A stretch of 37,813 nt of DNA from positions 1 to 37,813 of IMG/VR virus record IMGVR_UViG_3300048687_000085, one strand, 5' to 3'. The DNA comes from a virus. The notes beneath the pieces were generated by a model that saw only the letters and a list, made by a program, of their open reading frames with translations, was not told where the DNA came from and did no database searches. The translations under genes and the position numbers were made by a program. How positions within the stretch are numbered: position 1 is the first letter of the stretch; each line of letters opens with the position of its first letter. Shown in pieces: positions 1 to 33,446 of the stretch.

Positions 1-134
1 CCTGAAGAGCAGTAGCGGGGATAAGGTCAAATCAAGGCCCCAGGCGATCGCGATCGGATTAAGCGAAGAACGGCGTGCGAAGAAGAAGAGCTGCGATTGC
101 GCGGATAAGTCGAGTTGCAACTGCTAACACTCCA
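1..134. other. Leader of the structural operon, no gene seen
   Basis: No convincing gene lies here. A GTG-started extension of the portal frame begins at 75, but its first 20 residues are Arg/Ala-rich and unlike portal N-termini. If the window is circular, bases 1-5 would complete the LamG gene that runs off the right end: the last base g plus cc gives GCC, then TGA. Confidence 0.4.
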
Positions 135-2219
135 ATGGCATACCGCAAGACGAAGGATGAGGACGATTTCCTCTCCACGGCACGGGAGCGTTTCAAGCTA
201 AGCGCGGAGTCTGAAAACAAGCTGAGGTCCGATCAGAAGGCAGACCTTGAGTTCTATTCCGGAATCCAGTGGCCAGATAACGTCAAGCGCCAGAGAGAGA
301 TGGACAAGCGCCCGTGCCTCACGTTGAACCGCATGCCGCAGTTCGTCCACCAGGTGACAAACGAAATCAGGCAGAACAAGCCCGCGCCGAACGTCAGCCC
401 TGTAGACGATACCGGCGACAAGGAAACAGCGGAGATCTTCCAGGGCATCATCCGCCACATCGAACGCCAGTCGAAAGCCGATACCGCGAGATCCTATGCA
501 GCCTTCTACGCGGTGGTGTGCGGACGAGGCTACTACCGCATCGTCACCGACTTCGCGGACCCGATGGGCTTCGACCAGGAGATCTACATCAGACGTGTCA
601 AGAACCAGGCCACGGTTTACATGGACCCAACCTGTCAGGAACCCGATTACTCCGATGCAAGGTATGGATTCATTATCGAAGACCTGACCGATGATGAGGC
701 AGAGCGGCAGTTCCCCGATAAAAAACTGTCCAGCGCGGAAGACTTCCGTTCGCTCGGGGACGACGCGCCGTTATGGCGCTCGGAAAAGGGCGTTCGCATT
801 GCCGAGTACTTCAGCCGGGAGATGGTCCCGACGCCGATAGCGATGCTGGCGGATGGCACGGTGTTGCCGCTCGAGCAGGTGCCCGAGGGAACCAACATCA
901 TCGCGCAACGCACGACAGACGTGCCCCTGGTCAAGTGGGCCAAAATCGACGGATACCAGATCCTTGAAGAGGGTGAGTGGCCGGGGCAGTGGATACCGAT
1001 CATACCCGTCCTAGGGGAAGAATACGACATCGACGGGGAGACGGAACTGAGCGGCATGGTCAGGAACGCCAAAGACCCGCAGCGCATGCTCAACTACTGG
1101 GAGTCCTGCAAGACCGAGACGATCGCGTTAGCTCCGAGAGCGCCGTACATGGTGGCTGAAGGCCAGACGGAGAACCATGAGCAGGAATGGGCGCAGGCGA
1201 ATACCCGCAACTATCCGTACCTGATCTACAAGCCGAAGGCGGTAGGACAGGAGCTTGTTCCCCCGCCACAAAGGCAGGTGTACGAGCCTCCGGTACAGGC
1301 CATCACGCAGGCCGAACAGGTGGCGGTCGATCACATGAAGGCTGCGACCGGGATCTACGACGCATCGCTGGGCAACAGAAGCAACGAAACATCCGGCATC
1401 GGCATACGCGCCAGAAAGATGCAGGGCGATGTTGCCAACTATCATTACGTCGACAACTTGACCACCGCCATCACGCATGAGGGCCGCATCCTGGTTGACC
1501 TGATCCCGAAGATCTACGACAGGCCGGGCAGAGTGGTCCGCATTATCGGTGAGGACGGCACGGAGAAGAGCGTACCCGTCAATATGCCGTTCCGGGAGCA
1601 GAGCAATGGAATGGAGAAGTTCTACGATCTATCCGCGGGACGCTACGACGTTGCGGTAGCCGTCGGGCCATCCTACGCCACCAAGCGCCAGGAATCAGCT
1701 GAAAGCATGATGCAGTTCGCTCAGGTGGCTCCGGAGTTAGTCCCGCGGTATGCGGACCTGCTGGTCACCGCGATGGACTGGCCGGGAGCCGATGCGATCG
1801 CAGACCGCATTAGACCGCCCGATATCCCGAAAGAGGGCGAGCCGCCGATCCCGCCCCAGGCCCAGGCCGCGATGCAGCAAATGCAGATGCAGGCCCAGGA
1901 ACTACAGGCGCAGTTGCAGCAGGCGACCGAGATTATCCGGACCCAGAAACTGCAGATCGATTCGGCGGAACGGATGCAGATGCGCGATATCGAATCGAAG
2001 CAGATGCTGGCTGAAATGAAGGCGCAGACGGATATCATGCGGGATGCCGGGAAGATCCACAGCGATGTGTTGCAGACCGATCAGAAGGTGGAGTCGCAGG
2101 AATCGATAGCGCAGTTGAATGCCGAAACGAAGATCACCGCGGAACAGATGAAGTTGGGAGCCAAGAAAGAGCAGCAACAACAGAAGCCGCCGAATGGTTC
2201 GTTTGGCGGTGGGGATTAA
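135..2219 (+). CDS. P22-like portal protein
   Basis: This is the portal, the dodecameric ring at the capsid vertex through which terminase pumps DNA and to which the tail attaches. The ATG at 135 gives 694 aa, close to P22 gp1 (725 aa). The N-terminus (DDFLSTARERFKLSAESE, then FYSGIQWP near residue 60) is the usual start of P22-type portals. The C-terminal roughly 110 residues are Gln/Met-rich and strongly helical, matching the coiled-coil barrel of that family. An upstream GTG at 75 would add 20 basic residues and is less likely. Scaffold and coat follow, as in P22, but an antisense cassette lies between portal and scaffold. Confidence 0.93.
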   Translation: MAYRKTKDEDDFLSTARERFKLSAESENKLRSDQKADLEFYSGIQWPDNVKRQREMDKRPCLTLNRMPQFVHQVTNEIRQNKPAPNVSPVDDTGDKETAEIFQGIIRHIERQSKADTARSYAAFYAVVCGRGYYRIVTDFADPMGFDQEIYIRRVKNQATVYMDPTCQEPDYSDARYGFIIEDLTDDEAERQFPDKKLSSAEDFRSLGDDAPLWRSEKGVRIAEYFSREMVPTPIAMLADGTVLPLEQVPEGTNIIAQRTTDVPLVKWAKIDGYQILEEGEWPGQWIPIIPVLGEEYDIDGETELSGMVRNAKDPQRMLNYWESCKTETIALAPRAPYMVAEGQTENHEQEWAQANTRNYPYLIYKPKAVGQELVPPPQRQVYEPPVQAITQAEQVAVDHMKAATGIYDASLGNRSNETSGIGIRARKMQGDVANYHYVDNLTTAITHEGRILVDLIPKIYDRPGRVVRIIGEDGTEKSVPVNMPFREQSNGMEKFYDLSAGRYDVAVAVGPSYATKRQESAESMMQFAQVAPELVPRYADLLVTAMDWPGADAIADRIRPPDIPKEGEPPIPPQAQAAMQQMQMQAQELQAQLQQATEIIRTQKLQIDSAERMQMRDIESKQMLAEMKAQTDIMRDAGKIHSDVLQTDQKVESQESIAQLNAETKITAEQMKLGAKKEQQQQKPPNGSFGGGD

Positions 2220-4018: not shown

Positions 4019-5230
4019 TTGGCCGGTAACTCTCTCTTAACGATGAGCATGATCACTCGCGAAGCTGCGAGGATCTTAACCAACAACCTCTGTTTTACGA
4101 AGCAGATCAGTACCGTCTATTCAGATCAGTTCGCCCGCAGCGGTGCCAAGATCGGCAGCGTACTAAATATACGCAAGCCACCCAAGTACATCGGTAGAAC
4201 AGGCCGTGTGTGTGCCGTTGAAGATGTTGTCGAGACGTCAGTGCCTCTCGCCTTGACGACGCAGTTCGGTGTGGATCTATCCTTCACGTCAGCCGAGCTC
4301 GCGTTATCGATTGACGACTTCAGCAAACGCATTTTGAAGCCCGCGGTAGCAGTCGTTGCGAATAAGATCGACTTCGACATGATGGGCTTGTACACATCAG
4401 TTCCGAACGTAGTCGGCACCGCAGGAGTTGTCCCGAACACGCTGCTTACCTATCTGATGGCGGGCGTGGCCCTCGACGACAATATGGCCCCTCGCGATAA
4501 CCAACGTGCCGTCGTTGTAAATCCGATCCAGCAAGCCACTATCGTCGATGCCTTGAAGGGCTTGTTCCAATCAGCCGATCAGATCGAAGACCAATACGAA
4601 AAGGGCACGATGGGCATCACGGGCGGATTCAAGTGGTGTATGGATCAGAATACCCGCGTCCATACTGCAGGCCCCTATGGCGGCGCCCCGATTGTCTCGG
4701 GTGGCTCACAAGTAGGCAGCAACTTGCTTGTCTCGGGCTTCACCGCAGCCGCGGCATCTCGCCTGAAGAAAGGCGACATGTTCACCATCACGGGCGTGAA
4801 CGCCGTCAATGGACAGAACCATCAGGACCTCGGGTATCTCCGCACCTTCACCGTAACCTCAGACGTGAGCTCGGCAGCGGACGGCACGGCTACCATCCCG
4901 ATCTATCCGCCGATTGTCGCCACCGGCGCAACCCAGACCGTGACCGCTTCCCCGGCCGGCGGCGCTCCGCTCACCATGACCTTCGCCGCGAACTCGAAGA
5001 CCGCGCAGGCGCTCGCATTCCATAAGGACGCCTTCACCTATGCCACGGCTGATCTACCCCTGCCAGATGGCGTGGACATGGCTTCCCGTGTCAGCGACGA
5101 CCAACTCGGCGTCTCGGTCAGGATGATTCGTCAGTACACGATCTGCGACGATGCTTGGCCAACAAGATTAGACGTTTTATACGGAATCGCGCCGATCTAT
5201 CCAGAATTGGCATGCCGCATTATCAGCTAA
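4019..5230 (+). CDS. P22-type major capsid (coat) protein
   Basis: A 403-aa P22 gp5-type coat protein (P22: 430 aa), which builds the icosahedral shell on the scaffold. The start MAGNSLLTMSMITREAARILTN is typical: helix-forming, then Asn followed by long beta stretches. The middle (residues 215-320: GGFKWCMDQNTRVHTAG, SRLKKGDMFTITGVNAVN) fits the inserted domain and spine of the HK97 fold. Translation starts at a TTG (4019) preceded by AAGGA, an unusual start codon for the most abundant virion protein. The next gene begins 12 nt downstream. Confidence 0.92.
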   Translation: MAGNSLLTMSMITREAARILTNNLCFTKQISTVYSDQFARSGAKIGSVLNIRKPPKYIGRTGRVCAVEDVVETSVPLALTTQFGVDLSFTSAELALSIDDFSKRILKPAVAVVANKIDFDMMGLYTSVPNVVGTAGVVPNTLLTYLMAGVALDDNMAPRDNQRAVVVNPIQQATIVDALKGLFQSADQIEDQYEKGTMGITGGFKWCMDQNTRVHTAGPYGGAPIVSGGSQVGSNLLVSGFTAAAASRLKKGDMFTITGVNAVNGQNHQDLGYLRTFTVTSDVSSAADGTATIPIYPPIVATGATQTVTASPAGGAPLTMTFAANSKTAQALAFHKDAFTYATADLPLPDGVDMASRVSDDQLGVSVRMIRQYTICDDAWPTRLDVLYGIAPIYPELACRIIS

Positions 5231-22775: not shown

Positions 22776-23747
22776 ATGGAACTTCACCAGCAACTCCCCC
22801 TGTTCGCCGAAGCTTTCACAAACGAGAATGATCTGTTTCGGGAAAGCCTTCGCTTTGAGGAATCGATCCGCGCCCCGCGGACCTTGCAAACCTACTCGAG
22901 CGACTGGAAAACCTTTTGTCTGTGGTGCGCCAAGGAAGGTAGGGAAGCCCTTCCTGCGACCACCGACACCGTGAGGCTCTACATCACGGATTCTCTGCTT
23001 CACAACAAGCGCGTCAGCACCTTGCGGCACCATGTCTGCGCCATCATCCATCACCACCGCGTGGCTGGGTGTATCGAGCCTTCGCGGCGGGAGATTCTGC
23101 CGGTCCTCGCCGGTGCCCAGCGGATTCGCGGGGAACAGGTGCGAGGCAAAGCGGCCATCACGGTCGAACAGCTCCGGATGATGCTGTGGAGCCTTCACCG
23201 TCCGGAGCCGGCACGAACGCGGGACCAGGCCGTCCTGTTGTTCGGCTTTACGACAGCTCTGAGACGATCGAACATCGCGACGGTCGCAATCGAGGACGTA
23301 GACTTCCGGCCCGAAGGCTTTGTGGTCCATATCCGGAAAGAGAAGCAGGACCAGACCAGCGTCGGCCGGTACATCGGAGTCCCGAACGGCAAACACGCGG
23401 ACACTTGTCCTGTCCAGGCTTTGAAGGCCTGGCTGACCTACCGCGGCGTCACGCCGGGGCCGGTCTTTTGCGGAATGCGGGCGTCTAAAATCGACCACGA
23501 AAAACCCATCCACACAAACACGCTGGCGATGATTGTAAAGAGAGGCGCAGAAGCGCTCGGCCTGGATACAGCCGAGTACGCCGCGCACAGCTTGCGGGCA
23601 GGATTTATTACGAGTGCTCTGGAGGGGGGCGTGGGAGAGATTGTGACCGCACGGCATAGCGGCCACCGGTCGCTCGGGACGCTGAAGCGCTATATGCGCT
23701 CGGAGGACCCGTTCCGGGCGAATGCGTGCTCTGCTCTGGAGCTTTAG
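22776..23747 (+). CDS. Tyrosine recombinase 1
   Basis: 323 aa. A SAM-like N-terminal domain (residues about 20-115; LQTYSSDWKTFCLWCAKEG) is followed by the catalytic domain. The active-site set is visible: Arg in TTALRRSNI (about 168), Lys in HIRKEKQDQ, His-x-x-Arg in HSLRAGF (about 276), His in RHSGHRS and nucleophile Tyr in LKRYMRS (about 309). It should cut and rejoin DNA at att-like sites. It is on + between two minus-strand operons and unrelated in detail to the second recombinase at 28131, so it may belong to an inserted element or be a former integrase. Confidence 0.88.
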   Translation: MELHQQLPLFAEAFTNENDLFRESLRFEESIRAPRTLQTYSSDWKTFCLWCAKEGREALPATTDTVRLYITDSLLHNKRVSTLRHHVCAIIHHHRVAGCIEPSRREILPVLAGAQRIRGEQVRGKAAITVEQLRMMLWSLHRPEPARTRDQAVLLFGFTTALRRSNIATVAIEDVDFRPEGFVVHIRKEKQDQTSVGRYIGVPNGKHADTCPVQALKAWLTYRGVTPGPVFCGMRASKIDHEKPIHTNTLAMIVKRGAEALGLDTAEYAAHSLRAGFITSALEGGVGEIVTARHSGHRSLGTLKRYMRSEDPFRANACSALEL

Positions 23748-27795: not shown

Positions 27796-28134
27796 ATGCT
27801 CGTACACACCGAGAGGCAGCTCTCCCGGCAGACGCCGGTCTTTGACCACGCGGATATACTCCTGTACCGCGCCGACCGGGACAAGGCGCGTGAGTTATTA
27901 GCGCGTTCCGACGTCGACGTCATCGGCACGCTGACACGCATCAAAGCTCTGCGTTACCGCGGCCCGGACCCAGCGCACAAGATGGGCGGATCGCATCACA
28001 AGCGCGGAGTCGGCGTACCGCACCGGAATGAAAATTACTACAACGTCCGCGGCTGCTGGCACCTCGACAGAATCCCGGTAACCTACCACCCGCACTTTAT
28101 TGCAATTCTGACGGATAGGCTGGTACTTGTATGA
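27796..28134 (+). CDS. Hypothetical basic protein upstream of integrase
   Basis: 112 aa. The N-terminal half is charged (ADRDKARELLARSDVDVIGT); the C-terminal half is His/Arg-rich (HKMGGSHHKRGVGVPHRNEN, then CWHLDRIPVTYHPHF). Its stop overlaps the integrase ATG (ATGA), so it may be an excisionase-like or regulatory partner, but no excisionase fold is evident. Confidence 0.5.
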   Translation: MLVHTERQLSRQTPVFDHADILLYRADRDKARELLARSDVDVIGTLTRIKALRYRGPDPAHKMGGSHHKRGVGVPHRNENYYNVRGCWHLDRIPVTYHPHFIAILTDRLVLV

Positions 28135-28991
28135 GCAAAGCAGTTGTCATCCGTCCCCGCAAACCAACCGTCGACTGGGACCGCATTATTCCCCTCTGGT
28201 TGCACGGCCGCCCGGAAAGTACCTGCGACGTGTACCGGCCGATCGTCGAGGATTTCCGCCAATTTATCAAATCGAAGCCCATCGAACGCATAACGCTTAA
28301 AGACCTGCAGGATTATCAGGATCAATTCGCGGAGCAGAAACCGGCGACCATCAAGCGGAAATTAGCCACGATTAAATCGGTATTGGCTTTCGCGCACAAA
28401 ACCGGAATGATCCCTTTTAACGTGGGGGTCGCGCTCCGGACCCCGAAAATCCTGGATAACCTGGCGGAGCGTATTCTGACCGAAGAGCAGATCCAGCGGA
28501 TGATCCAACTCGAGCCGAACGAGCGGAACCGGGTCCTGTTGCGGGTGATGTATATCTCCGGTATCCGCGCCTCGGAAGCCTCCGGCCTGCACTGGCGCGA
28601 TGTCCAGCCAAGAGGCAAAGCGGGACAGATCACCGTGCTCGGCAAGGGACAAAAGACCCGCGCCATCCTGCTCAGCAAGCCCGTCTGGGATGCACTACAG
28701 AAATTCCGGAAGGACGCCGGCCCAAACGATCCGGTGTTCCAGATCGGGAGCGGCGAGGCGATGTCCCGGTTTCACGTCTCGATTATGGTGACAGCGGCCG
28801 CGAGACGGGCAGGGATTCCGGAGCGGGTATCGGCCCATGCTCTGAGGCACGGACACGCTACGCACGCGATGGATCACGGAGCGCCATTAGCCCTCATTCA
28901 GAAGACTCTGGGTCACGCAGACCTGTCAGTAACCTCACGGTATATCCACGTCAGACCTGACCAATCGTCCTCTGATTATCTCAACGGTTGA
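28131..28991 (+). CDS. Tyrosine recombinase 2 (phage integrase)
   Basis: 286 aa XerC/D-like enzyme. N-terminal core-binding domain (residues about 20-105; TCDVYRPIVEDFRQFIKSKP). Catalytic residues: Arg in YISGIRASEASGL (about 146), Lys in LGKGQKTRAILL, His-x-x-Arg in HALRHGHAT (about 241), His in LGHADLSVT (about 264) and Tyr in SRYIHV (about 273). It is followed by AT-rich inverted repeats (29001-29094) that could be the phage attachment site. As it lies next to the terminase and repressor modules, it is the better candidate for the prophage integrase. Confidence 0.9.
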   Translation: MSKAVVIRPRKPTVDWDRIIPLWLHGRPESTCDVYRPIVEDFRQFIKSKPIERITLKDLQDYQDQFAEQKPATIKRKLATIKSVLAFAHKTGMIPFNVGVALRTPKILDNLAERILTEEQIQRMIQLEPNERNRVLLRVMYISGIRASEASGLHWRDVQPRGKAGQITVLGKGQKTRAILLSKPVWDALQKFRKDAGPNDPVFQIGSGEAMSRFHVSIMVTAAARRAGIPERVSAHALRHGHATHAMDHGAPLALIQKTLGHADLSVTSRYIHVRPDQSSSDYLNG

Positions 28992-29000
28992 GATACTTTT

Positions 29001-29094
29001 TACAAAACCCCAGTTTTGTACGCCCGTAAGTCATACATAAATAAGGGGAAACCGTCGCGAATGCATAATAAGCAGAGTTTTGTAACTGGGGTAC
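29001..29094. other. att-like inverted repeats after integrase
   Basis: TACAAAACCCCAGTTTTGTA (29001-29020) is an inverted repeat with a 4-nt loop. GTTTTGTAACTGGGGTAC (29077-29094) repeats the same words inverted about 60 bp away. Repeated arm/core-like words beside an integrase suggest attP; a hairpin terminator for the integrase is another reading. Confidence 0.4.
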
Positions 29095-29162
29095 TCACCC
29101 CGGAAGGCCCCCAGGGGGGGCGGCTCGTTCGAGTGTAGACGAGTCCCTAAAAAAGAGGCAGT

Positions 29163-29726
29163 TTGGCAAGCAGGCCCACATTTACAGCGGCGAGACGTAA
29201 GCTATTTCTCAAAGCGTACGTGGCATGCGGCACGATCATCGGGGCGGCCCGCGCTATTGGCGTCTCGGACACCCTCCATTTCAAGTGGATGGAGGATCCG
29301 GAGTACGCCGCGGCCTTCGCAGAAGCAGAGAAACAGGCGATCGCGCACCTCGAGACTGAGCTTTTCAATCGCGTCTACGAGGGAACGGAAGAACCAGTCA
29401 TCTACCAGGGCGAATTATGCTACCAGAAGGACGCTAAAGGTAAGCTGACCAACAAGCCCCTGACGATTCGGCGCAAATCCGACACGCTGCTAATCTTTGC
29501 GCTCAAGGGCAAGAAACCGGACGTCTACCGCGATAACTTCAAAGGGGAAATCAGCCTATCCGGAAACGTAAACGCCAACCACAACGTAAACCTGACCAAG
29601 CTACCTGATGGCGATCTCGACCAGCTCATCACGATCCTCCAATCTGCCGCCATTCCTGGGCCTGGACCGGCCGAACGACCTCTTGAAGGCAGCATTACTG
29701 GAGAAGGAGAACCGGGAGAGAAATAA
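29163..29726 (+). CDS. Terminase small subunit
   Basis: 187 aa (P22 gp3: 162 aa). The N-terminal DNA-recognition HTH is visible (RRKLFLKAYVACGTIIGAAR, AIGVSDTLHFKWMEDPEYAA), followed by an oligomerisation region (EKQAIAHLETELFNRVYEGT). The KGKKPDVYRDNF segment is typical of this family. It selects phage DNA and loads the large subunit. The terL reading frame starts inside it and overlaps by 119 nt. The start is a TTG in good family register. Confidence 0.85.
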   Translation: MASRPTFTAARRKLFLKAYVACGTIIGAARAIGVSDTLHFKWMEDPEYAAAFAEAEKQAIAHLETELFNRVYEGTEEPVIYQGELCYQKDAKGKLTNKPLTIRRKSDTLLIFALKGKKPDVYRDNFKGEISLSGNVNANHNVNLTKLPDGDLDQLITILQSAAIPGPGPAERPLEGSITGEGEPGEK

Positions 29727-30351
29727 GATAGCTCGATTCTTTCCACTGGAAGGGAAATTCCGCCGGGAACTGTACAAACCGCACCTCGAGTTCTTCGCCG
29801 CTGGCGCCCGCTACCGAACCCGGGTGTTTCTTGCAGGCAACCGGACGGGAAAAACTATAGCAGGTGCCTACGAGCTGACATTACATTTGACAGGCGTGTA
29901 CCCGCAATGGTGGGAAGGCAAACGGTTTAGCCATCCGATCCGAGCGGTAGCCGCCTCGGACACGGGTAAGACAACTCGTGAGGTTGTCCAGCAGGAGTTG
30001 TTAGGACAGCCTGGAAGATTCGGCACGGGTATGGTGCCTTACGATCTTCTGGAGAAATCGACCATGCGCTCGGGCGTGACGGATGCGGTCGACACCTGTT
30101 ATATCAAGCACGCGGCCGGCGGATTCAGCACGCTGATTTTCAAGTCGTACGAGCAGAAACGTGAGTCCTTCCAAGGGCTTAGCCTGGAGTTCGGGTGGCT
30201 GGACGAAGAGTGCCCGGAGCAGATATTCGACGAGACGCTCACTCGTATGGCAACTACCGGGGGCTGTTTGGCGCTAACCTTCACCCCGCTTCAGGGGTTG
30301 ACGCCATTGATCCAGCGCTTCCTGCCCGGCGGGATTTCGACGGCGGATTAG
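29608..30351 (+). pseudogene. Terminase large subunit, N-terminal ATPase half (split terL)
   Basis: 247 codons holding the packaging ATPase: N-terminal family motif FLGLDRPNDLLKAALLEKEN, Walker A GNRTGKT (about residue 77), Walker B FGWLDEECPEQ (about 197) and coupling motif LALTFTPLQGLTPLI (about 224). After FLPGG (about 30336) the frame leaves the family and stops. The nuclease half resumes at 31037. Joining FLPGG to the downstream QVMEALKGNAW gives about 499 aa, the length of P22 gp2, with the usual spacing. Whether this is a broken gene, a spliced gene or two working subunits is open. Confidence 0.85.
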
Positions 30352-30591
30352 CACCTCGTAATCCTCGGGTATACCTAAGGCTCGGCATAAGGCTAGCTCA
30401 AATACCCTGACGATCTCGGGCCGTCCCGCTATCTTCATGTAGGCATAGGCGGCTTTCGCATCGGGGTGATTTACGAGTCCGCTCTCATAGTTGCGGAGCG
30501 CGGCCAAACTCAACCCCAGATAGCTAGCCATGGCTTGCTGGCTCAGGCGCAGCGCGGCGCGCAATTCGCGCGCGGCTTGTTGGAATGTCAT
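30274..30591 (-). CDS. HTH protein inserted in terL
   Basis: 105 aa, antisense to terL. Residues 10-36 are an XRE-type HTH (LRLSQQAMASYLGLSLAALR, NYESGLV), followed by AYMKIAGRPEIVRVFELALC and a short tail. The last 26 residues overlap the terL ATPase frame on the other strand, so its original C-terminus was probably overwritten at the junction. It is the only recognisable cargo of the insertion. CATGGAAG repeats flank its start (30589, 30621) and could be its operators. Confidence 0.7.
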   Translation of the reverse strand: MTFQQAARELRAALRLSQQAMASYLGLSLAALRNYESGLVNHPDAKAAYAYMKIAGRPEIVRVFELALCRALGIPEDYEVLIRRRNPAGQEALDQWRQPLKRGEG

Positions 30592-30621
30592 GGAAGACAG
30601 TGTACTTAGTGGTGCTACGAC

Positions 30622-30660
30622 ATGGAAGTCTTAAACGGCAACGCCTGGTTGACGATGTGT
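30622..30660 (+). pseudogene. Extra copy of a terL segment
   Basis: Thirteen codons read MEVLNGNAWLTMC, against MEALKGNAWITLC at 31046-31084 where the nuclease half begins. The protein match is strong, but the DNA differs at many third positions, so this came from a diverged terminase, not a recent local duplication. Upstream in frame is a stop 15 nt away; downstream the similarity ends abruptly. Confidence 0.7.
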
Positions 30661-30701
30661 GTAAGCTACCGCGTGCCTAAAGGCAGCGGCTTTTAACTGA
30701 T

Positions 30702-31058
30702 ATGCAGATTACTCCACACATCGCTAAGGCGGGTGTTGTCACCCTCGGCCAGCTTACAGGTGGCCCTACCGTTATTCACGGCAGCGAAAGCTTAAAAGAA
30801 ATGCGAAACAACGAGCCCAACCGTTTACCCGTTGCGGGGTGCCTTCAGCTCACTTCCAAGTATCTGGCAAACTCCGATCCGAGACAAGACACAGCGGTAC
30901 CGGTACGGCGGGGCGCTTCCTCCGCATGGCTGAAGCCAACGGTTTCCGCGCCAGAGTTTTTATGTAATCTCGCTCTCGGCAATATTAAAGAGAATGCCGA
31001 ACGTGCTCGCAAATTAGCTGAGTACATCGAGGTTCATTGCAAGTTATGGAAGCCTTGA
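30702..31058 (+). CDS. Unrecognised open frame within the terL insertion
   Basis: 118 aa: MQITPHIAKAGVVTLGQLTG, a Pro/Arg-rich middle and a helical end (NIKENAERARKLAEYIEVHC). It runs 12 nt past the point where terL resumes. The underlying sequence also folds into successive short hairpins (GGGTG..CACCC near 30730, GGCCA..TGGCC near 30747, CCGT..ACGG near 30768), so it may be RNA rather than coding. No homing endonuclease motif seen. Confidence 0.3.
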   Translation: MQITPHIAKAGVVTLGQLTGGPTVIHGSESLKEMRNNEPNRLPVAGCLQLTSKYLANSDPRQDTAVPVRRGASSAWLKPTVSAPEFLCNLALGNIKENAERARKLAEYIEVHCKLWKP

Positions 31059-31804
31059 AGGGAAATGCGTGGATTACCCTTTGTACTTGGGACCAGATAC
31101 CTCATCTGGATGAAGAGGCAAAAGCCACCCTCCTTAGCAGCTACCCGGATTACCAGCGTGACGCCAGGTCGAAGGGTGTACCGAGCCTCGGTTCAGGAGC
31201 GATCTACAAAGTCGCGGAGTCCGAGATCACGATCGACGATATCCCCATCCCGGCCCACTGGCCGAGAGCGTACGGATTCGACGTCGGGTGGAGATGGAGT
31301 GCCGCGGTATGGGGAGCCCTCGACCGCGACAACGACACGCTGTACGTCACCGCGGAGCACTACCGTTCGGAAAGCGAGCCGGTGATCCACGCAGAAGCCA
31401 TCAAGGCACGAGGAGCGTGGATCAAGGGAGCGATAGACCCGGCAGCTCGGGGACGCGGCCAGATCGACGGGCGGAACCTGCTGGACATGTATAGGGATCT
31501 CGGACTCGACCTTGTGCCCGCGGAGAACAGCGTCGAAACCGGAATCTACGAACTCCTGATGCGGATGACCAGCGGCCGCCTGAAGATCTTCAAGTCCTGC
31601 CAGAACCTGCTGGCCGAGTACAGATTGTATAGAAGGGATGAGCGTGGCCGGATCGTGAAAGAGCGCGATCATGCTCTGGATGCACTGAGGTACATGCACG
31701 GCCATTTTATAGAGATCTGCGCCACCCAGCCGGCCCCCCAGAAGGAGAAGCCGGTCTCGGCCTGGGCCTCAGCGGGTAGCTTTAGTACCGGATGGATGGG
31801 GTAG
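31037..31804 (+). pseudogene. Terminase large subunit, C-terminal nuclease half (split terL)
   Basis: 255 aa from TTG 31037 (or ATG 31046). It starts at the end of the ATPase linker (TWDQIPHLDEEAKATLLSSY, then RDARSKGVPSLGSGAIYKV) and holds the whole RNase H-like nuclease: acidic residues in YGFDVGWRWSA (about 88), IDPAARGRGQIDG (about 133) and ERDHALDALRYM (about 214). All three catalytic Asp are present, so selection has kept the domain. No strong Shine-Dalgarno precedes the start. The protein would be the headful nuclease, if made. Confidence 0.85.
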
Positions 31805-31835
31805 CAAATGGATGTACACTATCCAAGACTGAGGT

Positions 31836-31905
31836 TACGTCGGGCCTGGTTACGTCGGGTCGGGTGACGCGAGGTAAGGTGGCGCAGGGTGACGTCAGGT
31901 AAGGG
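31836..31905. repeat. Degenerate 5-nt periodic repeat, left block
   Basis: About 14 pentamers of the form N-G/C-G-T/C-N in unbroken 5-nt register (aggtt acgtc gggcc tggtt, then acgtc gggtc gggtg acgcg). It ends in aggtaaggg, which can act as the Shine-Dalgarno of the gene at 31927. Confidence 0.8.
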
Positions 31906-31926
31906 TAATGTGATATAACACTGCCG

Positions 31927-32493
31927 ATGGCAGTTACTGCAATCTGCAGTTTTGAAAGCCTCAGTCCCCTATCGTTCTCGCGGCATTACACGGTCGAGAA
32001 AACCCAGAAGGAATCCCCCCTTGATTACGAGAAGCGCACCTGGCGCGAGAAGTGCCATGTAAACGAGGATGGGTTTGTCTTCATCCCGCCGATGGCGTTC
32101 AAGCTCTGCCTGGCGGAAGCCGCGAAGTACCGCAGTGAGCGCATACCGGGTAAGGGTACATCGACGTACACCAAGCATTTCGAGGCCGGCGTGCTGGTGC
32201 TCGAGCCGCTCGTGCTTCCGATCAAGAAGGAGGATGTCCAGGGGGAATGGCTGTTCCTGCCCTCCGATGGACGGCGCGGCGGGGGCAAGCGGGTCGAGCG
32301 CTGCTTCCCAGTAGTTCCGCACTGGTCTGGCGATGTGACGTTCTATGTCCTCGACGCCACGATCACGGAGGATGTGTTCCGGGAGCATGTCGTTGAGATG
32401 GGCAACTTCATTGGTTTGTTGCGGTTCCGTCCGAGAAACAATGGTTATTATGGACGGTTCACATTGAAGAATCTGGTTTGGCGGGTTGAGTAA
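31927..32493 (+). CDS. Unknown protein flanked by pentamer repeats, weakly RAMP-like C-terminus
   Basis: 188 aa. Segments: EKTQKESPLDYEKRTWREKC, then GFVFIPPMAFKLCLAEAAKY, GTSTYTKHFEAGVLVLEPLV and, at the end, GNFIGLLRFRPRNNGYYGRF. The closing Gly-rich GxxIGxxRxRPxNxGxxGRF loop followed by a beta-strand recalls the Gly-rich loop of RAMP (Cas5/6/7-like) folds, but this is one motif and could be chance. The FIPPMAFKxCLxxAAKY part resembles where Cas7-like proteins insert a helix. It is not near CRISPR repeats or other cas genes. Likely a nucleic-acid-binding phage early protein. Confidence 0.5.
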   Translation: MAVTAICSFESLSPLSFSRHYTVEKTQKESPLDYEKRTWREKCHVNEDGFVFIPPMAFKLCLAEAAKYRSERIPGKGTSTYTKHFEAGVLVLEPLVLPIKKEDVQGEWLFLPSDGRRGGGKRVERCFPVVPHWSGDVTFYVLDATITEDVFREHVVEMGNFIGLLRFRPRNNGYYGRFTLKNLVWRVE

Positions 32494-32501
32494 GTGTTGC
32501 T

Positions 32502-32918
32502 TAGGTCAGGCAAGGCCAGGTGTGGCAGCGTGACGTTTGGCAGGGTGCGGTAAGGTAAGGATTCTACGGTGCGGTGCTGTTACGCGACGTGCGTTAAGTT
32601 AACGCCGGGTTTGGTGGCGTCTGGTCCAGCAACGTAAGGTAAGGGATTTTGTGGTCCGGTGACGTGTGGCGAGGTGGCGTGAGCCTAGGTGTCGTGAGGT
32701 AAGGTGGCGTCTCGTAAGGTAAGGGATTTATGGTGTGGTGCGGCGCGGTCGCGTCAGATACGGTAGGGCTTGGTCGGGTCTGGTGCGGTAAGGTAAGGGA
32801 TTTTCTGGTGTGGTCCGGTGACGTGAGACTGGGCAAGGTCGGGTACGACACGGTGTGGTGAGGTATGGCTAGGTGTCGTCGGGTCTCGCTGGTCGGGTTT
32901 GGTCCGGCAAGTTAAGGT
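32502..32918. repeat. Degenerate 5-nt periodic repeat, right block
   Basis: About 80 pentamers of the form NNG(T/C)N, typically GGT-centred, with few register slips. A longer word, GGTAAGGTAAGG then GATTT, recurs about every 80 nt (near 32549, 32634, 32715 and 32788), and a final TTAAGGTAAGGG lies 1 nt before the ATG at 32925. The opposite strand is open for 85 codons as a Ser/Thr/Pro/His-rich peptide, which the periodicity alone explains. No gene is believed here. Confidence 0.85.
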
Positions 32919-32924
32919 AAGGGC

Positions 32925-33446
32925 ATGCAATTTGAGATCAAGCGGTACCCCCAATGGAAACAACTCTATGACGCAGCTACTCCCCTGATCGAAGAGGGGA
33001 TGCGGCAGTTCACCTACGAGGAGCTGTCGAACCTCGCTGGCATGGATATCACCTCCGACGCCGGCCGGTCGCAGTTCTACCGTTTCCGCAAGACGCTCCT
33101 GCGAGAGAAAGCCTTGTGGATGGAGAACGACGTTAAAAAAGGCTACAGCGTGATTGCGGCCAAGGATCAGTCCACATCCGCCTATAAGCGGGTCCGTGCG
33201 GCGAAACGAAAGATCGGCATGGCTACGGCAATCAATTCGTACGTTCGGGCCGAAGACCTGACGCCGGAGCAGCGCTGCATGCAAGCGGCTACCGCGGTAG
33301 TGCTCCATGAGCTCGGCAAGGCGTTCGTGACCACAGGCAAAAAGCTCACGATTGTCGCGAAAGAGATGGGCAAGGTGGACGTGGACCTCGACAAGCTGGT
33401 CGAGTCCATCTCGGGTAAGCCGAGTAAGACTCTGAAGTCCGCCTAA
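32925..33446 (+). CDS. Unknown protein after the pentamer repeat
   Basis: 173 aa. The N-terminal half is helical with a possible winged-helix (MRQFTYEELSNLAGMDITSD, GRSQFYRFRKTLLREKALWM), then a basic linker (AYKRVRAAKRKIGMATAINS) and a helical end (CMQAATAVVLHELGKAF, LTIVAKEMGKVDVDLDKLVE). No family recognised. The ATG lies right behind the last repeat unit TAAGGTAAGGGC, which is its Shine-Dalgarno. Confidence 0.62.
   Translation: MQFEIKRYPQWKQLYDAATPLIEEGMRQFTYEELSNLAGMDITSDAGRSQFYRFRKTLLREKALWMENDVKKGYSVIAAKDQSTSAYKRVRAAKRKIGMATAINSYVRAEDLTPEQRCMQAATAVVLHELGKAFVTTGKKLTIVAKEMGKVDVDLDKLVESISGKPSKTLKSA

Follow-up and report, generated by a model that had tools for sequence, protein, structure and literature searches.

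Evidence for a two-gene terminase large subunit, divided between ATPase core and lid, in a P22-like podovirus and its relatives

The terminase large subunit (TerL) of the P22-like podovirus described here is very probably a natively two-gene enzyme, in which an N and a C protein, each predicted to have its own start codon, presumably associate non-covalently. A sequence-only reading of the same DNA had listed two subunits working together among its options, and this option is now supported because many relatives share the two-gene arrangement and because both halves are under purifying selection. The DNA analysed is IMG/VR record IMGVR_UViG_3300048687_000085 over its full 37,813 nucleotides (hereafter the window), assigned to a P22-like podovirus from its portal, coat and small terminase subunit (TerS) matches. 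Two TerL halves, both intact, had already been read from the letters and are borne out by the open reading frames and their Pfam matches to Terminase_6N and Terminase_6C, with a single N-half and a single C-half in the window. The relevant structural and packaging genes are the following:

75..2219, plus strand: P22-type portal gene, intact (P22_portal, E 1e-183)
4019..5230, plus strand: P22-type coat protein gene, intact (P22_CoatProtein, E 4e-40)
29163..29726, plus strand: terminase small subunit (TerS), intact (phrog_4044, E 1.5e-26)
29608..30351, plus strand: TerL-N, ASCE ATPase core (Terminase_6N, E 1e-15, columns 2-151; phrog_31467, E 3.5e-61)
31046..31804, plus strand: TerL-C, lid subdomain, linker and RNase H-like nuclease (Terminase_6C, E 7e-12; Terminase_6N columns 164-214)

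The two TerL halves and the position of the break

The TerL-N reading frame overlaps TerS and its start is uncertain, with homology beginning at about position 29695, and TerL-C starts at the ATG at 31046, with an alternative TTG at 31037 preceded by GAGG; the 694 nt (~0.69 kb) between the two contain several stops. Alignments locate the Walker A motif (GNRTGKT), the Walker B motif with its glutamate (WLDEE) and the coupling motif (TFTP) in TerL-N, and the conserved nuclease aspartate motifs, including DHxxD, in TerL-C, the same distribution that had been claimed from the letters. Both the ASCE core motifs and the RNase H-like nuclease that characterize TerL are thus present, on two polypeptides rather than one. 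The predicted model of TerL-N (pLDDT 84.7) matches the ATPase cores of P74-26, D6E, T4 and Sf6 TerL with Z scores of 14-16, and that of TerL-C (pLDDT 76.9) matches the P22 gp2 nuclease (4dkw) with a Z score of 25.4 from model residue 49 onward, in addition to a profile match to the same structure at E 7e-38; searching PDB sequences with the N profile returned chance matches only. Among PHROGs families, phrog_31467, an N family of unknown function whose 261 positions correspond in length to a stand-alone N gene, matches window 29680-30348 and could be re-annotated as the ATPase core of split TerLs, and phrog_5653 (199 positions) represents a short stand-alone C family.

The sequence-only reading had placed the cut exactly at the linker between ATPase and nuclease, which proved wrong on both profile and structural grounds. 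The Terminase_6N profile is itself divided, with columns 2-151 on the N-half and columns 164-214 on the C-half, where they are followed by Terminase_6C. Alignment of the N-half model ends at residue 213 of P74-26 (4znl, Z 16.3), residue 190 of D6E (5oe8, Z 15.4), residue 307 of T4 gp17 and residue 166 of Sf6, and D6E is matched by the C-half profile from chain position 201 onward, or approximately residue 198 once a 3-residue construct offset, deduced from where Y213 and R224 fall, is subtracted. In D6E TerL the lid contains Y213 and R224, and the linker spans residues 230-241 (PMC5727402). In D6E numbering the N-half stops at residue 190 and the C-half profile starts at ~198-201; both lid and linker thus reside on the C-half, and the modelled alignments put the break within the ATPase domain itself, where it separates the lid subdomain from the ASCE core. 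The GNRTGKT motif of the N-half retains the P-loop arginine, which has been proposed to drive lid movement in cis.

The surroundings of the locus include a tyrosine recombinase gene at 28131-28991 (Phage_integrase, E 7e-31), which precedes the terL N gene by 0.6 kb, and positions 22776-23747 were also judged by eye to be tyrosine recombinase-like. Two non-coding stretches with strong G/T bias and quasi-repeats of core GGTAAGG(GATTT), at 31826-31920 and 32480-32925, sit on either side of the gene at 31927-32493. At the DNA level, window 29000-32000 gave no match to phage records.

Recurrence, history and selection of the split

Searches with each half yielded 198 non-redundant loci carrying both. 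After removal of doubtful loci, 84 are split (window included) and about 110 are single-ORF, a ratio that is not a prevalence because the set was chosen by similarity and is non-random. TerL being contiguous in the latter and divided by separate stop and start codons in the former, the pattern at sequence level is that of genes-in-pieces. The breaks of the 84 split loci all fall in one short zone, and breaks at other positions were noticed in L091, L254 and L021 only. N-gene tails extend 2-29 aa past the last conserved motif, and the C genes, 70 of 83 with an ATG start, begin within ~10 residues of the first conserved motif, typically like MSRYVVQAGWDDVPHL. The spacers comprise 30 overlaps, 17 of them exactly 4 nt (often ATGA), followed by 6 gaps of 0-50 nt, 22 of 51-400 nt, 12 of 401-1200 nt and 13 longer ones, up to 6.1 kb. 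Split TerLs are found in prophages of cultured bacteria (Acetobacter musti, Azospirillum cavernae, Vibrio galatheae, Kushneria aurantia and Neptunomonas marina, among others), as well as in the circular podovirus genome MW202785, where both genes are annotated 'large terminase protein'.

Long spacers contain unrelated genes in sense or antisense orientation, several at a time in some loci. Intact endonuclease VII or HNH genes are present in L049, L003, L205 and L057; many other split loci have a gap too short for a homing endonuclease, and the window holds only a weakly matching remnant tail. The intact L049 endonuclease VII gene (Pfam E 3.4e-21) ends in TAATG across the C start, and in L051 the N gene is joined directly to the C gene through TAATG in the same manner. 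In L092, L204, L235 and L121, 5-6 kb with several genes lie between N and C. The spacers of L158, L164, L165, L236, L241 and L151, from prophages of Halomonas-like hosts and from viral contigs, carry related ORFs of 64-114 aa that belong to no known family and are candidates for a protein that partners or bridges the two TerL pieces. At L109 (3826-5589), a locus also split at the lid, the N-half ORF has ~320 extra residues at Walker A with a weak Intein_splicing match (E 4.5e-4), and this segment is probably an intein.

In a tree of 175 sequences, single-chain phage TerLs included, at least 29 changes between split and intact states are required, as compared to a mean of 57.6 and a minimum of 49 in shuffles; 28 remain after collapsing branches with SH-aLRT below 80 and 17 below 95, and trees from one half alone, collapsed at 95, retain only 7-8. 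Parsimony with equal costs reconstructs independent fissions from an intact ancestor, and a cost favouring fusion gives few fissions and many refusions. The window groups with L002, L051, L003 and L049 in a clade (SH-aLRT 97) in which all five members are split, with spacers from -1 nt to ~1 kb. Its closest relative, the sister L002, has a 92% identical C-half and is broken at the same point, its stop and start codons lying 14 nt apart, and the fission therefore predates the window's insert.

Between the window and L002, dN/dS is 0.048 for the N gene (dS 1.63) and 0.045 for C codons 29-252 (dS 0.41), and other split-split pairs mostly show values of 0.03-0.25 in both halves, the same range as intact-intact pairs. 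As both are under purifying selection, the split halves are not pseudogenes. The large difference in dS between the N and C genes of the same phage pair suggests that the two are exchanged separately by recombination.

Content of the window's spacer

The gap had been described as an antisense HTH gene and an unrecognised stretch; the former stands, and within the latter we could identify the 3' remnant of an endonuclease VII-like gene, along with a relic of a C-gene start. The spacer and its flanks contain:

30274..30591, minus strand: antisense Xre/RstR-type HTH gene (HTH_3, E 4e-8)
30622..30660, plus strand: relic of the original C-gene 5' end (ATGGAAGTCTTAAACGGCAACGCC), with 30622-30646 92% identical over 25 nt to the L002 C-gene start (E 1e-4)
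30661..31129, plus strand: foreign tract, comprising the spacer remainder and the first 28 C-gene codons (window/L002 pS)
30963..31043, plus strand: C-terminal remnant of an endonuclease VII-like homing gene (phrog_2914, E 0.0018)

Searches of phages and viral contigs gave no relative of the HTH gene, which shares 78 nt with the 3' end of TerL-N. The endonuclease remnant lies within an ORF at 30702-31058 and runs colinear with the final 27 residues of the L049 enzyme up to its terminus, a match equalled in 0 of 500 shuffles; when phages were searched by tblastn with the 118-aa spacer ORF, the sole hit was a weak one to an endonuclease VII tail (E 0.6). Synonymous divergence between the window and L002 (pS) is 0.97 over C codons 1-28 vs 0.32 over codons 29-252, and the tract 30661..31129 was probably co-converted, flank co-conversion being the usual mark of free-standing endonuclease homing (PMC2988022). 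In such a scenario, an endonuclease-bearing donor would have converted the spacer together with the 5' end of the C gene, the old C-gene start would have been left behind as a relic on the left of the spacer, and the endonuclease gene would then have decayed to its tail. The content of the window's spacer is secondary debris, acquired after the split, and the foreign 28-codon 5' end of the C gene could be recent.

Some features of this particular locus weigh against the two-gene reading. Scans of the spacer for sigma-70-like promoters and for terminators found none, and with an antisense gene and no such promoter there the C gene has no obvious source of transcription in this phage. The 0.69-kb insert was seen in one contig only, with no second copy of the spacer in the record beyond the window itself, and this too counts against the reading for the window. 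If the foreign 5' end of the C gene is recent, the window's own TerL copy, unlike those of its relatives, may be in decay.

Assembly, alternative readings and known systems

These data support a model where the N protein would provide the ASCE ATPase core and the C protein the lid subdomain, linker and nuclease, and where their non-covalent association would form the usual ring motor and headful nuclease. After fission, the spacer would have become a place where free-standing homing endonucleases, along with other small genes, could insert and be tolerated. We advance more tentatively the broader idea that the packaging motors of many phage lineages are genuine two-protein enzymes, with ASCE core and lid-nuclease as separate exchangeable subunits. 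If so, coupling of the lid to ATP hydrolysis would have to pass through a protein-protein interface, and the nuclease module could possibly be swapped, released or differently dosed. TerL is treated as a single chain, and motor models route force along a covalent path from core to lid, linker and nuclease; a natural break at the core-lid boundary, maintained by selection and evolved repeatedly, puts the need for this covalent link to the test, and split TerLs offer ready-made two-part motors for structural work. In addition, tools that use TerL for phage phylogeny or completeness may overlook or misannotate one of the halves.

Splicing of an intron of group I, group II or another kind to yield a fused TerL has precedents, as the ICP1 terL transcript is spliced (PMC10448857) and group I introns break up the terL of Jug phages (PMC12363816). 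Rfam searches of window 30200-31300 nevertheless returned no intron match, either at E<=1 or at gathering cut-offs, nor did searches at gathering cut-offs of 14 further split loci; the gaps are occupied by inserts that are antisense or carry several genes and have unrelated content, and the 4-nt overlaps and 14-nt gaps of relatives leave no room for an intron, so that the spliced element entertained by the sequence-only reading is very unlikely. Programmed frameshifting or coupled readthrough into a fused TerL is conceivable at the 4-nt or 1-nt overlaps of many relatives but impossible across the 694-nt, multi-stop gap of the window or at most split loci with gaps above 50 nt, and we give it almost no weight. 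A split intein was rejected, with N tails of 2-29 aa and no intein-like extension on either half.

The mosaic insert, with its relic start, decayed endonuclease tail and antisense gene between N and C, could also be taken to indicate a pseudogene, old or recent, or a defective prophage whose TerL was broken by insertion, leaving the phage dead or helper-packaged. However, relatives share the split, dN/dS is ~0.05 in both halves, and TerS, portal and coat genes are intact, all of which render this reading improbable; a disabling satellite insertion, as once proposed, is not supported, the split being older than the insert and common to the sister with the 14-nt gap. An assembly artefact would account for an exact insert seen once, but is highly unlikely in view of the split itself, which a close, independent contig and isolate genomes also show, and of the relics flanking the insert, which are those expected from recombination.

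We thus favour a TerL encoded natively by two genes, and found no description of a recurrent arrangement of this kind in the open-access literature. It resembles the TerLs of P22, D6E, P74-26, Sf6 and T4 (4dkw, 5oe8, 4znl, 4iee and 3cpe) in its ASCE core and nuclease folds, motifs, lid and linker, but those are one polypeptide, whereas the window encodes two, divided between core and lid. It shares with the terL genes of ICP1, whose N part has no predicted function (PMC10448857), and of Jug an interrupted coding sequence; in those phages, however, the RNA is spliced to give one protein, while the window shows no detectable intron and has a separate start and stop for each part. Closer parallels are Aeh1 nrdA, split by mobE, and T4-like gene 43A/43B, genes-in-pieces whose protein pieces reassemble (PMC2988022, PMC3653736), as those of TerL presumably would. 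In these systems, as here, an essential phage gene exists as two genes, and there the gap often harbours a free-standing homing endonuclease. The two TerL proteins would most likely assemble into an ordinary TerL, with Aeh1 NrdA and gene 43A/43B as precedents; unlike in these systems, the TerL split recurs many times at one site and often without an endonuclease. Gene splitting as such is already known in phages, and what the sequences would add is a recurrent two-gene TerL.
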